A DNA stretch of 37,119 bases from Bacteroidota bacterium (GTDB taxonomy: Bacteria > Bacteroidota > Bacteroidia > NS11-12g > UBA9320), in assembly GCA_016124755.1 (NCBI GenBank), contig WGNA01000026.1, positions 1 through 37,119 of the forward strand. Reading direction: 5' to 3'. Numbering within the stretch: position 1 is the first letter of the stretch; each line of letters opens with the position of its first letter. Below the pieces are notes generated by a model. That model was given only the letters and a program-made list of their open reading frames with translations. It ran no database searches and was not told the origin of the DNA. The position numbers and the translations under genes are program-made. Below, in pieces: positions 24,614-32,914 of the stretch.

Positions 24614-27600
24614 ATGGAAAAACTGAAGGAAGTAATAAAGGAATTCAAACTCTCTTCGTGGTCGGTAGACAATCGTATCAGTGTTTATGTGATGATGTTT
24701 ATCATCCTCATCATTGGTATGAGCAGCTACAATTCGATGCCGAAGGAGAGTTTTCCTGAAATTAAGCAACCCACCATTTATGTAAATACAGCGTATCCCG
24801 GAAACTCTCCGATTGATATGGAGAATCTGGTAACACGCCCGATCGAGAAGGAAATCAACACCATAAGCGGATTGAAGAAACTCTCGTCAACCTCCATCCA
24901 GGATTATTCGATCATTATTGCTGAATTTGAGCTCGACGAACCTTCTGCAGAAGTTTTGCAGGAAGTGAAAGACGCGGTTGACCGCGCAAAGTCGGATTTG
25001 CCAAACGACCTACCGGCAGATCCGAACGTAATGGAACTCGACTTCTCCGAATTTCCGGTAATGAACGTAAACGTGTCTGGCGATTATTCCCAGAAGAAAC
25101 TCAAAGAATATGCAGAGTATCTTCAGGATAAAATGGAGAAACTACCGGAAGTTTCGGCAGTTGACATCAGTGGATTAACCGAGGAGGAAGTTGAAGTTTC
25201 GATCGACCGTGTTAAAATGGAATCTCTGGAGATTTCTCTCGGAGATGTTGAACAAGCCATAACCGGGGAAAACGTAACCATGTCGGGTGGCGATATTAAA
25301 AGCATCGAGGGCAACGAAATAACCCGAAGAAATATTCGGATTGCCGGTGAATTCAAGAATTACAAAGACATCGAAAATGTAATTGTAAAAAATGAACATC
25401 AGAAGATTGTTTACCTGCGGGATATTGGTGAGGTAAGTTTCGGGCCGAAAGAACCGACGAGTTTCGCCAGACTAAATGGGAATCCGGTTGTTACACTCGA
25501 CGTGAAGAAGAAGAGCGGCGGAAACCTGCTCGATGCAGCCGATAGCATTCAGGCTATTATTAAACATGCTCAGGCGAACACACTTCCCAAAGATCTTGAA
25601 ATCGTAATTACCAACGACCAGTCGAAGTTCACCCGAATGATGGTCGACAACTTAGAAAACAGCATCATCATGGGCGTAATTCTCGTGGTGGTAGTTTTGA
25701 TTTTCTTCCTCGGATTGCGAAACTCTTTGTTTGTGGGAATTGCCATTCCGCTTTCCATGCTCATGGGAATTGCCATCCTGAATTTTGCCGGAACCACACT
25801 AAACATGATGGTGTTATTCTCGCTGATTTTAGCGCTCGGGATGTTGGTTGACAACGGCATTGTCGTCGTCGAGAACATTTACAGGTTACGGGGAGAAGGG
25901 AAAACAGCCGAACGTTCTTCGAAGGAAGGAGTAGGAGAGGTGGCAATGGCAATTATTTCATCAACTGCCACAACGGTTGCGGCCTTTGTTCCCTTGTTAT
26001 TCTGGAAAGATTTAATGGGAGAATTTATGAAGTACCTCCCGATTACGCTGATCATCGTGCTTTCATCTTCATTGTTTGTCGCGCTGGTGGTGAATCCGGT
26101 TCTAACAACCGACTGGATGAAAATCGGCAAAACCGTGCAGTCGTCGAATCGCAAGTTCTGGATCCGTATGTCTATTGTTTTTGTTCTGGGTATTTTGTTC
26201 AGAATGATTGATATGAAGATGTTGGGGGGCTTGTTCATAGCCGGCTTCCTGATTTCACTTCTCAACCGGTATTTATTAACGCCGGGTGGAGATTATTTCA
26301 TGGAGAACATTATGCCGAAGCTGGAGAATTCGTATGCCAATTTTGCGAGTTATGCCTTGCACGGAATTAGACCTTATTTGTTCTTCTTTGGAACAATTCT
26401 CCTCATGATTTTAACAATGACCTTTTATGGAATGAGTAATCCGAAGGTTGTTTTCTTTCCGGAAAATGATCCGAACTACATAAACATTTTCATTGAAGCC
26501 CCATTGGGAACCGACATTCAGAAAACGGATGTGATTGCTCAAAAGCTGGAGAAGGTGGTTCAAAAAACCATCAAACCCTACAGCAACATTGTGGAAGCAA
26601 CTTTAGCCCAGGTTGGAGAGAAAACCTCAGACCCGAATGAAGGTCCGCAAAGCGGTTCATCTCCAAACAAAGCGAGAATCACGGTTTCCTTTATCGAATA
26701 TCAAAAGCGGGCATTGCTCGAAGGAAAAGTTGCCACAACATCAGAAGTGATGGCTAAAATTAAAGAAGCCTGCCGCGACTTTCCGGAAGCACAGTTGACT
26801 TTCTCTAAAGATGCGATGGGACCTCCGGTTGGTAAGCCGATTAACGTTGAGGTTAAAGGTGAAGATTATCTCACGCTGATCGGGGAAGTGGAGAAGATCA
26901 AAAAGAAAATGGAAGATGCCCAGATTCCGGGAGTTGACCAATTAAAAACGGATCTCGAACTCGGAAAACCGATGCTGGAAATTTCGATTGACCGGGAAGC
27001 CGCCCGACGTTTCGGACTCAGCACAATGCAGATTGCGGGAACTATCAGAACTGCTTTGCTCGGAAAGGAAATCAGCAAATACAAAGAAGGAGAGGACGAC
27101 TACGAAGTTCAACTGCGGTTTGAAGATGATTACCGTTACAATCTGAGCAATCTGCTGAATACGGTAATTACTTTCCGCGATATGGCGAGCGGACGAATCG
27201 CTCAGGTTCCGATTTCTGCGGTGACCAAAATTGATTTCAATTCAACATACGGAACGGTTAAGCGGAAAGATCTCGATCGGGTAATTACGATTTTCTCGGA
27301 AGTTGAAGAGGGATATAATGCGAATGAGATTGTCGGGAAGTTTAAAGCTTTGCTGGCCGATCACAACATTAAAGAAGGTTACGAATTCAAATTCACCGGA
27401 GAGCAGGAAGAACAATCTGCATCCACCGACTTTTTAATGGGCGCGATGATGCTGGCCGTGTTCATCATCTTCCTGATTATCGTAACCCAGTTCAATTCTG
27501 TTGTGGGACCACTTATCATTATGTTTTCGGTTATCTTCAGTACCATTGGTGTGTTCCTCGGTTTCGGAATTTTCCGAATGCCATTCAGTATTATGATGAG

Positions 27601-28096
27601 TGGTATCGGTATTATTTCACTCGCCGGTGTTGTTGTTAATAATGCGATTGTATTGATCGATTATACGAACCTTCTGCGGGATCGGAAACGTGCCGAACTG
27701 GGTATTGATAAATCAATGCGGTTACCAAAAGAGATCATTCTCGAAACTATTGTGGAGGCAGGCAGAACCCGTTTGAGACCGGTGTTGTTAACGGCAATCA
27801 CCACTGTTCTGGGATTGGTTCCGCTGGCAATCGGTATGAACATCAACTTCTTCAGTTTGCTCACGAGTTTAAATCCGGAGTTTTATGTAGGAGGGGATAA
27901 TGCAGTTTTCTGGGGCCCGATGGCGTGGACGGTAATTTTCGGACTTGTGTTCGCAACCTTCCTCACACTTATTATCGTTCCGGTAATGTACTGGTTGAGT
28001 GATCAGTTAACCTTAGGAGCCAGAAGGCTTGCAGGCTTAAGTGTTGAAGAAGCCAAAATCACAGATGAGGCCGATAGCCTTGTCGATAACGAATAA
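24614..28096 (+). CDS. RND-family multidrug efflux pump (AcrB-like) inner-membrane transporter
   Basis: 1160 residues; proton-driven exporter of the resistance-nodulation-division superfamily, working with the TolC-like channel and adaptor encoded upstream. TM1 is at about residues 23-43. The porter domain includes TAYPGNSPIDMENLVTRPIE. The TM4 proton-relay motif reads GMLVDNGIVVVEN, with D413-N414 in place of the classical Asp-Asp. TM10-12 regions include GIISLAGVVVNNAIVLIDY and RTRLRPVLLTAITTVLGLVP. Between the two RND halves there is an extra hydrophobic hairpin (about IVFVLGILFRM and LGGLFIAGFLISLL), suggesting two additional membrane segments. The Asn is also seen in other Bacteroidota RND proteins as far as I recall. 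Substrate range cannot be predicted. A terminator follows 22 bases after the stop. Confidence 0.92.
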   Translation: MEKLKEVIKEFKLSSWSVDNRISVYVMMFIILIIGMSSYNSMPKESFPEIKQPTIYVNTAYPGNSPIDMENLVTRPIEKEINTISGLKKLSSTSIQDYSIIIAEFELDEPSAEVLQEVKDAVDRAKSDLPNDLPADPNVMELDFSEFPVMNVNVSGDYSQKKLKEYAEYLQDKMEKLPEVSAVDISGLTEEEVEVSIDRVKMESLEISLGDVEQAITGENVTMSGGDIKSIEGNEITRRNIRIAGEFKNYKDIENVIVKNEHQKIVYLRDIGEVSFGPKEPTSFARLNGNPVVTLDVKKKSGGNLLDAADSIQAIIKHAQANTLPKDLEIVITNDQSKFTRMMVDNLENSIIMGVILVVVVLIFFLGLRNSLFVGIAIPLSMLMGIAILNFAGTTLNMMVLFSLILALGMLVDNGIVVVENIYRLRGEGKTAERSSKEGVGEVAMAIISSTATTVAAFVPLLFWKDLMGEFMKYLPITLIIVLSSSLFVALVVNPVLTTDWMKIGKTVQSSNRKFWIRMSIVFVLGILFRMIDMKMLGGLFIAGFLISLLNRYLLTPGGDYFMENIMPKLENSYANFASYALHGIRPYLFFFGTILLMILTMTFYGMSNPKVVFFPENDPNYINIFIEAPLGTDIQKTDVIAQKLEKVVQKTIKPYSNIVEATLAQVGEKTSDPNEGPQSGSSPNKARITVSFIEYQKRALLEGKVATTSEVMAKIKEACRDFPEAQLTFSKDAMGPPVGKPINVEVKGEDYLTLIGEVEKIKKKMEDAQIPGVDQLKTDLELGKPMLEISIDREAARRFGLSTMQIAGTIRTALLGKEISKYKEGEDDYEVQLRFEDDYRYNLSNLLNTVITFRDMASGRIAQVPISAVTKIDFNSTYGTVKRKDLDRVITIFSEVEEGYNANEIVGKFKALLADHNIKEGYEFKFTGEQEEQSASTDFLMGAMMLAVFIIFLIIVTQFNSVVGPLIIMFSVIFSTIGVFLGFGIFRMPFSIMMSGIGIISLAGVVVNNAIVLIDYTNLLRDRKRAELGIDKSMRLPKEIILETIVEAGRTRLRPVLLTAITTVLGLVPLAIGMNINFFSLLTSLNPEFYVGGDNAVFWGPMAWTVIFGLVFATFLTLIIVPVMYWLSDQLTLGARRLAGLSVEEAKITDEADSLVDNE

Positions 28097-28117: not shown

Positions 28118-28149
28118 AAGGCCGTTCGAAAGAGCGGCCTTTTTTTTTG
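28118..28149 (+). terminator. Terminator of the efflux operon
   Basis: Ten-pair stem (28118-28127 and 28132-28141, one G-T wobble) closing a GAAA loop, followed by a T-run to about 28148. Confidence 0.85.
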
Positions 28150-28170: not shown

Positions 28171-29545
28171 CGGTAACAGTAACTGTAACAGTAACGGTAA
28201 CATAGAGCCAAGAGCGAAAGAGCGAAAGAGCGGTAACGGAAATAGTAACCGTATCAAGAACGGAGATAAAAAACGAAAACCTATAGAGCGATATCGATTC
28301 TGAGCTATGCGAAGAATCTCTTATATCACAGAAACGCAAATCGTCATGCTGAGCGGAGCGAAGTAACCAAAGCGGAGAACAAAAGAACAAAGAGTGGAAA
28401 CAGTAACAGTAACAGTAACTGTAACATAGAGCGGAGAGAGGAAGAGCGGTAACGGAAACCGTAACAGTAACCGTAACAGTAACCGTAACAAGAACGGAGA
28501 TAACAAACGAATACCTAGAGAGCGATATCGATTCTGAGCCGTGCGAAGAATCTCATAACTCTCCGAACTCAAATCGTCATGCTGAGCGAAGCGAAGTAAC
28601 CAAAGCGGAGAACAAAAGAACAAAGAGTGGAAACAGTAACAGTAACAGTAACTGTAACATAGAGCGGAGAGAGGAAGAGCGGGGTTGTATTAACTGTAAA
28701 GGTAACGGCATGATAGAGCCAAAAGCGAAAGAGCGAAAGGGCGGAAACAGTAACCGTAACTGTAACCGTAACCGTAACCGTAACAAGAACGGAGATAACA
28801 AACGAATACCTAGAGAGCGATATCGATTCTGAGCCGTGCGAAGAATCTCATAACTCACGAAAGGCAAATCGTCATGCTGAGCGAAGCGAAGTAACCAAAG
28901 CAGAGAACAAAAGAACAAAGAGTGGAAACAGTAACAGTAACAATAACAGTAACTGTAACATAGAGCGGAGAGAGGAAGAGCGGGGTTGTGTTAACTGTAA
29001 CGGTAACGGCAAGATAGAGCCAAAGCGAAAGGGCGGAAATAGAAACAGTAACTGTAACCGTAACAGTAACCGTAACAAGAACGGAGATAAAAAACGAATA
29101 CCTAAAGAGCGATATCGATTCTGAGCCGTGCGAAGAATCTCTTATTACACCGAAAGGCAAATCGTCATGCTGAGCGAAGCGAAGTAACTGAAACGGAGAA
29201 CAAAAGAACAAAGAGCGGTAACGGAAACAGAAACAGTAACTGTAACCGTAACCGTAACCGTAACAAGAACGGAGATTAAAAACGAATACCAAGAGATCGA
29301 TATCGATTCTGAGCTGTGCGAAGAATCTCTTATTTCACCGAACTCAAATCGTCATGCTGAGCGGAGCGAAGTAACCAAAGCGGAGAACAAAAGAACAAAG
29401 AGTGGAAACAGTAACGGTAACTGTAACAGTAACATAGAGCCAAGAGCGAAAGAGCGAAAGAGCGGTAACTGTAACCGTAACCGTAACCGTAACAAGAACG
29501 GAGATAAAAAACGAATACCTAAAGAGCGATAGAGCGAGGAGGATC
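28171..29545. repeat. Composite tandem repeat array with degenerate GTAACN hexamer tracts
   Basis: Five full units and one partial unit of 188-295 bp. Each has, in order: a run of hexamers GTAACN; ACAAGAACGGAGATAA; CGAATACCTAGAGAGCG; the module CGATATCGATTCTGAGC (positions 28289, 28523, 28818, 29110, 29298, and truncated at 29527); GTGCGAAGAATCTC; TCGTCATGCTGAGCG (positions 28341, 28574, 28869, 29162, 29349); GAAGCGAAGTAACC; and AGAACAAAGAGTGG leading into the next hexamer run. AGAGCGAA octamers occur between. GATTCT and AGAATC within each unit can form a short hairpin. Units differ mainly in hexamer copy number. The array fills most of the gap between the efflux operon and lgt. No credible gene lies in it. 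Confidence 0.9.
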
Positions 29546-29828
29546 TGTCGATTGTTTTTTATCTTACAGCAAAGCAAGTTTTACCGGCACGATCCGCATT
29601 TGTAGAGGCGAGGCATGTCTTGCCCCTACAAACACAGCCGCCGAATAAGACTTCAAATGATCAAGAACACCGGAGATTGAATACAACTGAACCAATTTTA
29701 TCCCATGTAGAAAAATTACAGTGAATGATGAATTATCCCGAATGATCGCCAAACTTCTCAATCGCTTAATCTCAATGCGGGATTTAAACCCTATTATCGC
29801 TGAATATTTCTGACCAGATCTCAGCAGA
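29546..29828. other. Gap between the repeat array and lgt
   Basis: Apart from the palindrome at 29599-29632, this stretch holds one short protein-like frame on the plus strand, open from 29691 to 29813, with a possible GTG start at 29721 (VNDELSRMIAKLLNRL and so on, 30 residues). It could be a remnant of a longer gene, but nothing identifies it. No clear lgt promoter was found. Confidence 0.3.
29599..29632. repeat. 34-bp near-perfect palindrome of the GTAGGGGCGAGGCATG type
   Basis: TTTGTAG at 29599 and CTACAAA at 29626 bracket AGGCGAGGCATGTCTTGCCC. Seventeen pairs form with one mismatch and two G-T wobbles. Such short palindromes recur between genes in many unrelated bacteria (general knowledge); here it stands alone, next to but distinct from the hexamer array. 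Confidence 0.7.
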
Positions 29829-31061
29829 ATGTTTCCAAACTTTTATTTCCTGTTCAAAGACCTCTTCGGAATTGAAGCTTGTGCTTTAGTCTATATAAAC
29901 ACCTTCGGTTTCTTTGTTGCCATTTCGTTCCTGCTCGCAAACCTCACCATGACCTGGGAGTTACAACGAAAGGAAAAAGACGGCCTCATAAAAGGAATGC
30001 CCGGAAAGCAGTGGGTGGGAGTGATGCCGAATATGTCGGATTATGCCTGGAATGCCGCAATGGGATTTATTCTCGGCTGGAAATTCCTGTATCTGATTGT
30101 AAATGCCTGCGATTTTTTCAGCGATCCGCAAAGCAAAATTCTCAGTAGTGAAGGTTCTTTAACCATGGGACTCATCGCTGCGGCAATTGCTGTGGGAATG
30201 AAATATTATCAGGGGTGGAAAACCAAAAACAAACACACCGAAGCGAAATTGGAAGCGGTAACAATTCATCCGTATCAGCGAATGGGGAATTTTACCATTA
30301 TCGCAGCGGTCGCGGGTTTATTGGGTGCTAAAATTTTCGACCACATGGAGCACTGGGATGAATTCATTAAAAATCCTCTGGGTGCTTTTCTCAATCCATT
30401 TTCGGGTCTTACGTTTTACGGCGGATTGATCGTGGGCGGTGGTGCGGTTCTTTGGTACGCACGAAAAGTAAATATTCACTGGCGTCACATGCTCGACGTT
30501 GGTGGTCCTGCCATGATGTTAGCTTATGGTGTTGGCAGAATAGGTTGTCACATGGCGGGTGATGGTGACTGGGGAATTGTGAATACACGTCCAAATCCGG
30601 GATGGCTGCCCGACTGGCTGTGGGCTTATACTTACCCGAATAACGTTGCGCATGTTTGTGATCCGATTGGCGGTGTGCCCTGTGAACCGGGTGTGATTCC
30701 CCAATTGTCGGTTCCGGTTTGGCCGACTCCGATTTACGAAGCAATGATGGGAATCGGACTCTTTTTTATTCTGTGGTCGTTGCGAAAGCGAATTAAAGTC
30801 CCCGGAGTTCTGTTTTGCATCTATCTCATTTTTGCCGGATTCGAACGATTCTGGATTGAGAAAATTCGGGTGAACGCTGTTTATCATATTGGCGGTATGA
30901 ACATCACTCAGGCAGAAATTATTTCCGTGGTTTTAATGATTGTAGGAGCCATTGGTTGGTGGTGGTTTAAAAAACATCCAGAAGTTAAATTGCTTTCTTC
31001 GGCTTCGGGATCGGATATCGGTTCAACACCTGCTGAAACCGCTCAATCCGAAGAAAAATAA
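29829..31061 (+). CDS. lgt: Prolipoprotein diacylglyceryl transferase (Lgt)
   Basis: 410 residues, longer than the roughly 290 of E. coli Lgt because of an N-terminal segment and a loop of about 60 residues before TM helix 3. It attaches diacylglycerol from phosphatidylglycerol to the lipobox Cys of prolipoproteins in the inner membrane. The signature region reads YGVGRIGCHMAGDGDWG (G236, R237), then PTPIYEAMMGIGLF and FAGFERFWIEKIRVN, which correspond to the GRxxNFxNxExxG, HPTQLYE and R/E-containing motifs. The HGG motif is FYGGLI here. These changes fit my recollection of Bacteroidota Lgt. Several lipoproteins in this window (the adaptor, the nucleotidase domain, the M14 peptidase) would be its substrates. 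Confidence 0.9.
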   Translation: MFPNFYFLFKDLFGIEACALVYINTFGFFVAISFLLANLTMTWELQRKEKDGLIKGMPGKQWVGVMPNMSDYAWNAAMGFILGWKFLYLIVNACDFFSDPQSKILSSEGSLTMGLIAAAIAVGMKYYQGWKTKNKHTEAKLEAVTIHPYQRMGNFTIIAAVAGLLGAKIFDHMEHWDEFIKNPLGAFLNPFSGLTFYGGLIVGGGAVLWYARKVNIHWRHMLDVGGPAMMLAYGVGRIGCHMAGDGDWGIVNTRPNPGWLPDWLWAYTYPNNVAHVCDPIGGVPCEPGVIPQLSVPVWPTPIYEAMMGIGLFFILWSLRKRIKVPGVLFCIYLIFAGFERFWIEKIRVNAVYHIGGMNITQAEIISVVLMIVGAIGWWWFKKHPEVKLLSSASGSDIGSTPAETAQSEEK

Positions 31062-32777: not shown

Positions 32778-32825
32778 TGCTTTGGGATTGTTCAAACCAC
32801 GTATTGGAACCATACGATTCTTTTT

Positions 32826-32902
32826 TGTTTCACTTTTTATGACATAAATGTTTTTGTTTCACTTTTTGTGACACAATGTGGCTTGTTCCAATTTTTTTGA
32901 CA
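32826..32902. repeat. Three 19-bp direct repeats at an exact 29-bp period
   Basis: TGTTTCACTTTTTATGACA at 32826-32844, TGTTTCACTTTTTGTGACA at 32855-32873 and TGTTCCAATTTTTTTGACA at 32884-32902. Starts are 29 bp apart both times. The first two also share most of the 10-bp spacer. Each unit begins TGT and ends ACA. The array lies 12 bases before the truncated open frame at 32915. Confidence 0.75.
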
Positions 32903-32914
32903 TAAAATTGGTAG

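Follow-up and report, generated by a model that had tools for sequence, protein, structure and literature searches.

Bacterial minisatellites of the VNTR/MIRU type consist of tandem intergenic units that vary in length and copy number. In the REP/BIME systems, inverted REPs lie on either side of the RAYT transposase genes, and the REPs stay palindromic through complementary changes (Nunvar 2010, PMC2817692). Other families of repeated intergenic sequences that fold as stem-loops were described by Cozzuto 2008 (PMC2267715). The terms "Bacteroid-", "Porphyromonas", "GIY", and "transposase" are not mentioned in the text of that paper, indicating that the tandem-GA hairpin family reported here is not described there. 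Among possible partner enzymes, the small GIY-YIG proteins of COG2827/UPF0213, which have a UvrC-like domain, were regarded as putative repair nucleases in a Caulobacter paper (PMC1839093), and no role of these proteins in repeats was found in the open-licence literature. Many Bacteroidota have numerous intergenic palindromes of the form CTGAGC...CGAAG, and a mover for these was likewise not found in the open-licence literature. The same literature, which omits most subscription journals, contained nothing related to the motif strings of the array and no link between GIY-YIG proteins and REP, REPIN, or Bacteroidetes repeats; because our search was confined to open-licence papers, the novelty of the present findings is provisional.

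In this study, we analysed an intergenic repeat array from a member of the Bacteroidota. It resembles the VNTR/MIRU minisatellites in having intergenic units that are repeated in tandem and are uneven in length and copy number, but differs from them in that the units carry covarying hairpins and that copies of this composite unit are scattered across some 26 sites. The likeness to REP/BIME extends further: imperfect palindromes are dispersed between genes in many copies (26 arrays, 74 A-B pairs, and 103 motif sites versus 4 for a control), they form clusters, double changes maintain the pairing of their stems, and an enzyme gene has inverted copies on both sides. However, whereas REP/BIME elements are linked to a RAYT (Y1, PF01797), the gene linked here encodes a GIY-YIG nuclease, which has a PF01541 domain as the small COG2827/UPF0213 proteins do. 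Furthermore, unlike a REP, the hairpin combines a tandem GA mismatch that is fixed with a stem that varies freely, and within an array the units follow one another head to tail as direct repeats and include a hexamer tract. The RAYTs of Nunvar are proteobacterial (PMC2817692), whereas the arrays described here are in Bacteroidota. Since the defining Y1 gene was looked for and not found, we do not class the family as a member of REP/BIME. Instead, we propose, with a probability of about 0.5, that it is a REP/BIME-like non-coding repeat that has a GIY-YIG nuclease as its partner and has grown locally by recombination.

Structure of the composite array

The window, i.e., the whole stretch of DNA analysed, is one entire contig of 37,119 bp. 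The source genome, that of an uncultured Bacteroidetes bacterium, has a size of 4.05 Mb in 39 contigs. A first-pass annotation had placed a composite array of about 1.4 kb between an acrB-type efflux gene and lgt; this array was real, and its TRF scores of 781 and 1190 were far above chance. Each unit contained two hairpins, A and B, as well as AGAGCG-rich DNA and a tract of GTAACN/GAAACN hexamers (Table 1). All of the modules named before, namely the GTAACN hexamers, the AGAGCGAA octamers, the CGATATCG module, and the TCATGCTGAGCG(A/G)AGCGAAG module, were found, and the tandem units with their hexamer tracts support the description of the locus as a composite minisatellite with a microsatellite inside. 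Active expansion and contraction of the locus, which that annotation also put forward, is a conjecture. The count of five and a half units was also correct, five being complete and the sixth being broken off just past CGATA. The hairpin A starts were spaced by 234, 295, 292, and 188 bp, which gives exactly the unit length range of 188-295 bp that had been stated. This variation had been ascribed to the numbers of hexamers and octamers. These numbers contribute to it, but it is mostly a larger block that is present or absent (e.g., 28660-28740).

Table 1 Features of the array and of its neighbours in the window.
Feature	Position	Strand	Basis
Entire composite array (five complete units plus a truncated sixth)	28173..29539	+	sequence, tandem-repeat analysis
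Hairpin A, unit 1 (GATTCT-GA-GC-TAT-GC-GA-AGAATC)	28296..28318	+	
Hairpin B, unit 1 (GTCAT-GC-T-GA-GC-GGA-GC-GA-A-GT-AAC)	28343..28367	+	
Hairpin A, unit 2	28530..28552	+	
Hairpin B, unit 2	28576..28600	+	
Hairpin A, unit 3	28825..28847	+	
Hairpin B, unit 3	28871..28895	+	
Hairpin A, unit 4	29117..29139	+	
Hairpin B, unit 4	29164..29188	+	
Hairpin A, unit 5	29305..29327	+	
Hairpin B, unit 5	29351..29375	+	
GTAACN/GAAACN hexamer tract, example	28449..28490	+	
Further hexamer tracts	28173-28202, 28397-28426, 28630-28659, 28744-28785, 29042-29077, 29218-29265, 29405-29434, 29465-29494		
AGAGCGAA octamers, three copies	28211..28233	+	
AGAGCGAA octamers, second site	29443-29465		
Sixth, truncated unit: hexamers and spacer, ending before hairpin A	29376..29539	+	
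Terminator-like stem and T-run 3' of the efflux gene; the array begins past it	28120..28148	+	sequence
Left neighbour, AcrB/AcrD/AcrF-type RND efflux gene	24614..28096	+	PF00873
Right neighbour, lgt, prolipoprotein diacylglyceryl transferase	29829..31061	+	PF01790

The gap from the end of the array to lgt was about 290 bp. The nearest relatives of this lgt were found in Bacteroidetes MAGs, in which a different gene was present upstream of lgt and the site was not syntenic. A protein-coding array was rejected: the only ORFs of at least 100 aa were overlapping minus-strand ones with TTG starts, made of the repeats, and the unit lengths are not all multiples of three. A known RNA was rejected as well, the one weak Rfam match (sroB, 30.7 vs 44 bits) covering the terminator region and not the array, and no tRNA genes were found in the window. 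A second dispersed palindrome, TTTGTAGAGGCGAGGCATGTCTTGCCCCTACAAA, was observed directly past the array (29599-29632), with a near-identical copy beside the array on contig C7 of the source genome (L063, around 450-520). Downstream of lgt, an AT-rich 29-bp tandem repeat of 2.9 copies (32822-32906) was present, which is unrelated to the array.

Outside the source genome, the GTAACN/GAAACN hexamer tract gave only three matches, all in coding sequence and apparently due to chance. Degenerate short-period intergenic tracts (TCTAACC-like and CAATGTAG-like) were seen in relatives near similar hairpin motifs or lgt (L034 and L036 in genome G046, and L038 upstream of lgt).

A genome-wide family of arrays

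The genome-wide search with the composite unit gave 109 matches in the source genome, in which about 26 intergenic clusters contained hairpins together with hexamer or octamer tracts. The pattern CTGAGC-N3-6-CGAAG occurred at 103 sites in this genome, against 4 sites for the reversed control pattern. Hexamers and hairpins were on the same strand in 23 of the 26 arrays, tied in two, and opposed in one, and the arrays occurred in both orientations relative to the neighbouring genes. The earlier statement that the modules recur between genes was therefore borne out by these 26 arrays and by the occurrence of the motif in other Bacteroidota. The accompanying idea that such motifs had been captured into one tandem array was not; what was found instead is a genome-wide family of arrays with conserved polarity.

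Over 74 adjacent A-B pairs, the identity was 0.88 within an array and 0.66 between arrays, suggesting that seeding is rare and that the copies are homogenised locally. Strong homogenisation of this kind would also be expected of a passive satellite that arises by slippage and unequal recombination only. Such an origin agrees with the sharing of the variable base by adjacent hexamers (41% versus 29% expected), as slippage predicts, and with the absence of a nuclease gene from the window array. It would require, in addition, that the covariation of the hairpins be due to templated quasi-palindrome correction and that the nuclease genes described below be bystanders in tolerant intergenic DNA. 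On the evidence of the hairpins and of the nuclease genes given in the following sections, we consider this origin rather unlikely.

Fourteen of the 78 contig ends, counted from coordinates, were located no more than 600 bp from such an array, indicating that the repeats break the assembly and that the copy number of the arrays may be underestimated. The contigs with these ends were C2, C4, C7, C8, C11, C12, C15, C17, C18, C19, C21, C26, C31, and C32. This would also suit a reading of the array in the window as a collapsed or chimeric repeat. However, the units in the window differ from one another and lie inside one contig with ordinary genes on both sides, and arrays of this architecture are present at about 26 loci, each with variants of its own, so that there is only the slightest chance of the array being an assembly artefact.

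Conserved structure of the hairpins

The segments CGATATCG...GCGAAGAATCTC (A) and TCATGCTGAGCGAAGCGAAG (B) were found to be two hairpins with one common core, which consists of a stem, GA, GC (or GT/AC), a loop of 2-3 bases, GC, GA, and the other arm of the stem. The stem of hairpin A was constant (ATTCT/AGAAT), and hairpin B had the pattern GTCAT-N1N2-T-GA-GC-nnn-GC-GA-A-N2'N1'-AAC. A tandem GA in both arms and a variable complementary stem were observed in all ten hairpins of the window and in 74 copies genome-wide. Among the 74 copies of hairpin B, the outer pairs N1N2 comprised eight dinucleotides and were complementary in 71, the two GA steps were kept in 72 and 73, respectively, and the loop was GAA in 52. 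REPs have a conserved head sequence adjoining the palindrome; here, GTCAT stood before hairpin B in 70 of these copies, but of the 65 hairpins near GIY-YIG genes elsewhere, only 22 were preceded by GTCA/GTCT.

When the 33 distinct copies of hairpin B were compared, 96.5% of the cells were paired. Changes on both sides were found in 33 cells versus 11.0 in shuffles, with none of 500 shuffles giving as high a value, although such counts of double changes are inflated by relatedness among the copies. Sliding of the partner arm as a control abolished the pairing signal. The test is not circular, because N1 and N2 were free in the search pattern.

It is known that d(GCGAAGC) forms a very stable DNA mini-hairpin and that tandem sheared GA is stable in a pyrimidine-GA-purine context. 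The templated correction invoked for a passive satellite, if it acted as plain correction of a palindrome, would erase the GA mismatch too, yet the mismatch persisted in 72-73 of the 74 copies under eight different stems. This argues that the mismatch-bearing hairpin is the recognised form, and judging from the pattern of substitutions, this form looks to be under selection.

Tandem GA is also common in structured RNA. ViennaRNA predicted the hairpin for each of five tested sequences when these were folded as RNA and for four when they were folded as DNA, with modest energies that were lower for RNA; as the hairpin is predicted in both forms, folding does not choose between DNA and RNA. These features would suit a function at the RNA level, in which the hairpins are kept as attenuators, stabilisers, or small-RNA arrays. 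Such a function nevertheless seems quite improbable to us, given that the window array is located past a terminator-like site, that the arrays occur in both orientations relative to their neighbours, and that no Rfam match was obtained within the array. It would, moreover, leave the linkage to a clade of DNA nucleases unexplained.

Linkage to small GIY-YIG nuclease genes

The array on contig C18 of the source genome contained a gene for a 97-aa GIY-YIG protein (PF01541, E = 5e-15) that was flanked by inverted A-B pairs, the flanking hairpins being oriented opposite to the usual direction. Another GIY-YIG gene was located on contig C32 among copies of a different palindrome, and the remaining intact small GIY-YIG genes of this genome were situated at tRNA or tmRNA genes. 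The closest solved structure to the array-borne GIY-YIG protein was PDB 1ywl (UPF0213) with an E value of 0.009, and no NCBIfam name was above the cut-off for any of three GIY-YIG proteins.

In genomes of the order, CTGAGC-N3-6-CGAAG was found at 25 sites within 300 bp of 67 small GIY-YIG genes, against 0.20 expected. In a second sample, consisting of 77 small GIY-YIG genes from 148 Bacteroidota genomes, 38 sites were found against 0.52 expected, the count being somewhat inflated by two overlapping reading frames at one locus (L270). The intergenic setting might perhaps account for a tenfold enrichment, but not for a seventy- to hundredfold one. The density of the motif dropped with distance from the GIY-YIG genes, and of 18 nearest downstream copies 16 were inverted (P = 0.0013). 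Beyond the motif itself, 60 of the 65 hairpins near these genes had at least two additional outer pairs, whose sequence varied. A distant genome (G168) that had been chosen on motif matches alone contained a hairpin array with a nuclease gene of the same subclade in the middle.

Near Y1 transposases in the same genomes, the motif was found at 0 sites for 29 loci (0.18 expected), and the three Y1 genes of the source genome were without hairpins. The dispersed palindromes, their clusters, the complementary mutations, and the genes between inverted copies all resemble the REP-RAYT system (PMC2817692). With no motif at the Y1 genes, however, it is highly improbable that the family is REP/BIME proper and is moved by a Y1 (RAYT) transposase.

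The number of motifs correlated weakly with the number of GIY-YIG genes (rho 0.23 across the 148 genomes of the phylum; rho 0.54 within the order), and the two genomes richest in the motif, with 291 and 231 copies, had few GIY-YIG genes. It may be that the nuclease acts in trans, that it is lost once the repeats have spread, or that it is not required.

Two clades of small GIY-YIG proteins

A tree of 141 small GIY-YIG proteins had few columns for its rows, and its inner branches are uncertain. One branch, with an SH-aLRT support of 98%, placed 25 of 25 hairpin-associated genes on one side and 41 of 41 tRNA-associated genes on the other (Fisher P = 7e-9 for the hairpin label across that branch). 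With a wider definition of the hairpin (at least five Watson-Crick pairs, GA, a closed inner loop, and GA), 32 of the 73 genes in the hairpin clade had tandem-GA hairpins nearby, versus 2 of the 68 in the tRNA clade; such hairpins were found at 2 of 73 distal controls and at none after shuffling. Over half of the hairpin-clade genes had no tandem-GA hairpin under the definitions used. The tandem-GA hairpins are genomically linked to one GIY-YIG clade. A clean split between clades and a seventy- to hundredfold enrichment at GIY-YIG genes, with none at Y1 genes, would not be expected if the nuclease genes were bystanders of a passive satellite.

Genes of the sister clade were located at or inside tRNA and tmRNA genes (L095, L097, L101, L102, and many loci in L105-L167), frequently as tandem copies; repeats of tRNA ends and CCTGCCTG-type palindromes accompanied them. 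This position at tRNA/tmRNA genes with repeated tRNA ends is like that of homing endonucleases, and from the sequences the sister clade looks like one that homes into tRNA genes. The small GIY-YIG genes in general resemble GIY-YIG homing endonucleases in being small, free-standing, and apparently able to settle at specific sites, but differ from them in that no intron is involved. Tentatively, and at somewhat less than even odds, we suggest that the hairpin clade reads DNA shape, namely that of a hairpin or cruciform in which tandem G.A mismatches are combined with a freely covarying stem, and is the autonomous partner of phylum-wide REP-like repeats, and that its sister clade is specialised for tRNA genes.

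Proposed mechanism

In the mechanism that we propose for a REP/BIME-like repeat with a GIY-YIG partner, a dispersed composite unit would have been seeded at the window site and would then have expanded through tandem duplication and gene conversion as well as through slippage within the hexamer tract. Hairpins A and B are the probable recognition or cutting sites, as a single strand or a cruciform, for a clade of small, COG2827-like GIY-YIG nucleases; as the hairpin stems differ between loci, this recognition would need to be by shape. Recombinational repair of the breaks from other copies would carry hairpins to new intergenic sites, and the same repair would expand and homogenise the arrays, inside which nuclease genes might also settle. 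Whereas the genomic linkage and the structural conservation are observed, binding or cutting of the hairpins by the nuclease, the repair of the breaks, and the spread that these would drive are inferred. As the window array carries no nuclease gene, the mechanism applies there by extension, and the hexamer tract, which is private to the source genome, has no role in the nuclease model.

If this mechanism is true, a second type of enzyme, unrelated to RAYT, would join the REP-transposase story, and the covarying stems with a fixed mismatch would be explained. It would also suggest what some of the COG2827 GIY-YIG proteins do and account for repeat arrays that break draft assemblies. With the linkage to one nuclease clade, a single protein and a single oligonucleotide allow the question to be tested directly.

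Other palindrome arrays and a possible decayed mover

A second array family was observed in the source genome on contig C32 (L099, G000:C32:1-2190). It was built of units of about 110 bp that carry GTCATCCCGGAC..GTTCCGGGATCTC palindromes, and also had a GIY-YIG gene between inverted copies of its palindrome. Arrays of a different family were seen in the distant genome G168 (L334 and L335, on contigs C26 and C33), in which GTCATCCTGAGC..GCGAAGGATCT hairpins alternated in units of about 110 bp and one array had a GIY-YIG gene. In the motif-richest genome, with 291 copies, a hairpin-flanked GIY-YIG gene with an in-frame stop was found (L294, G149:C11:186624-186842), which is possibly a decayed mover.
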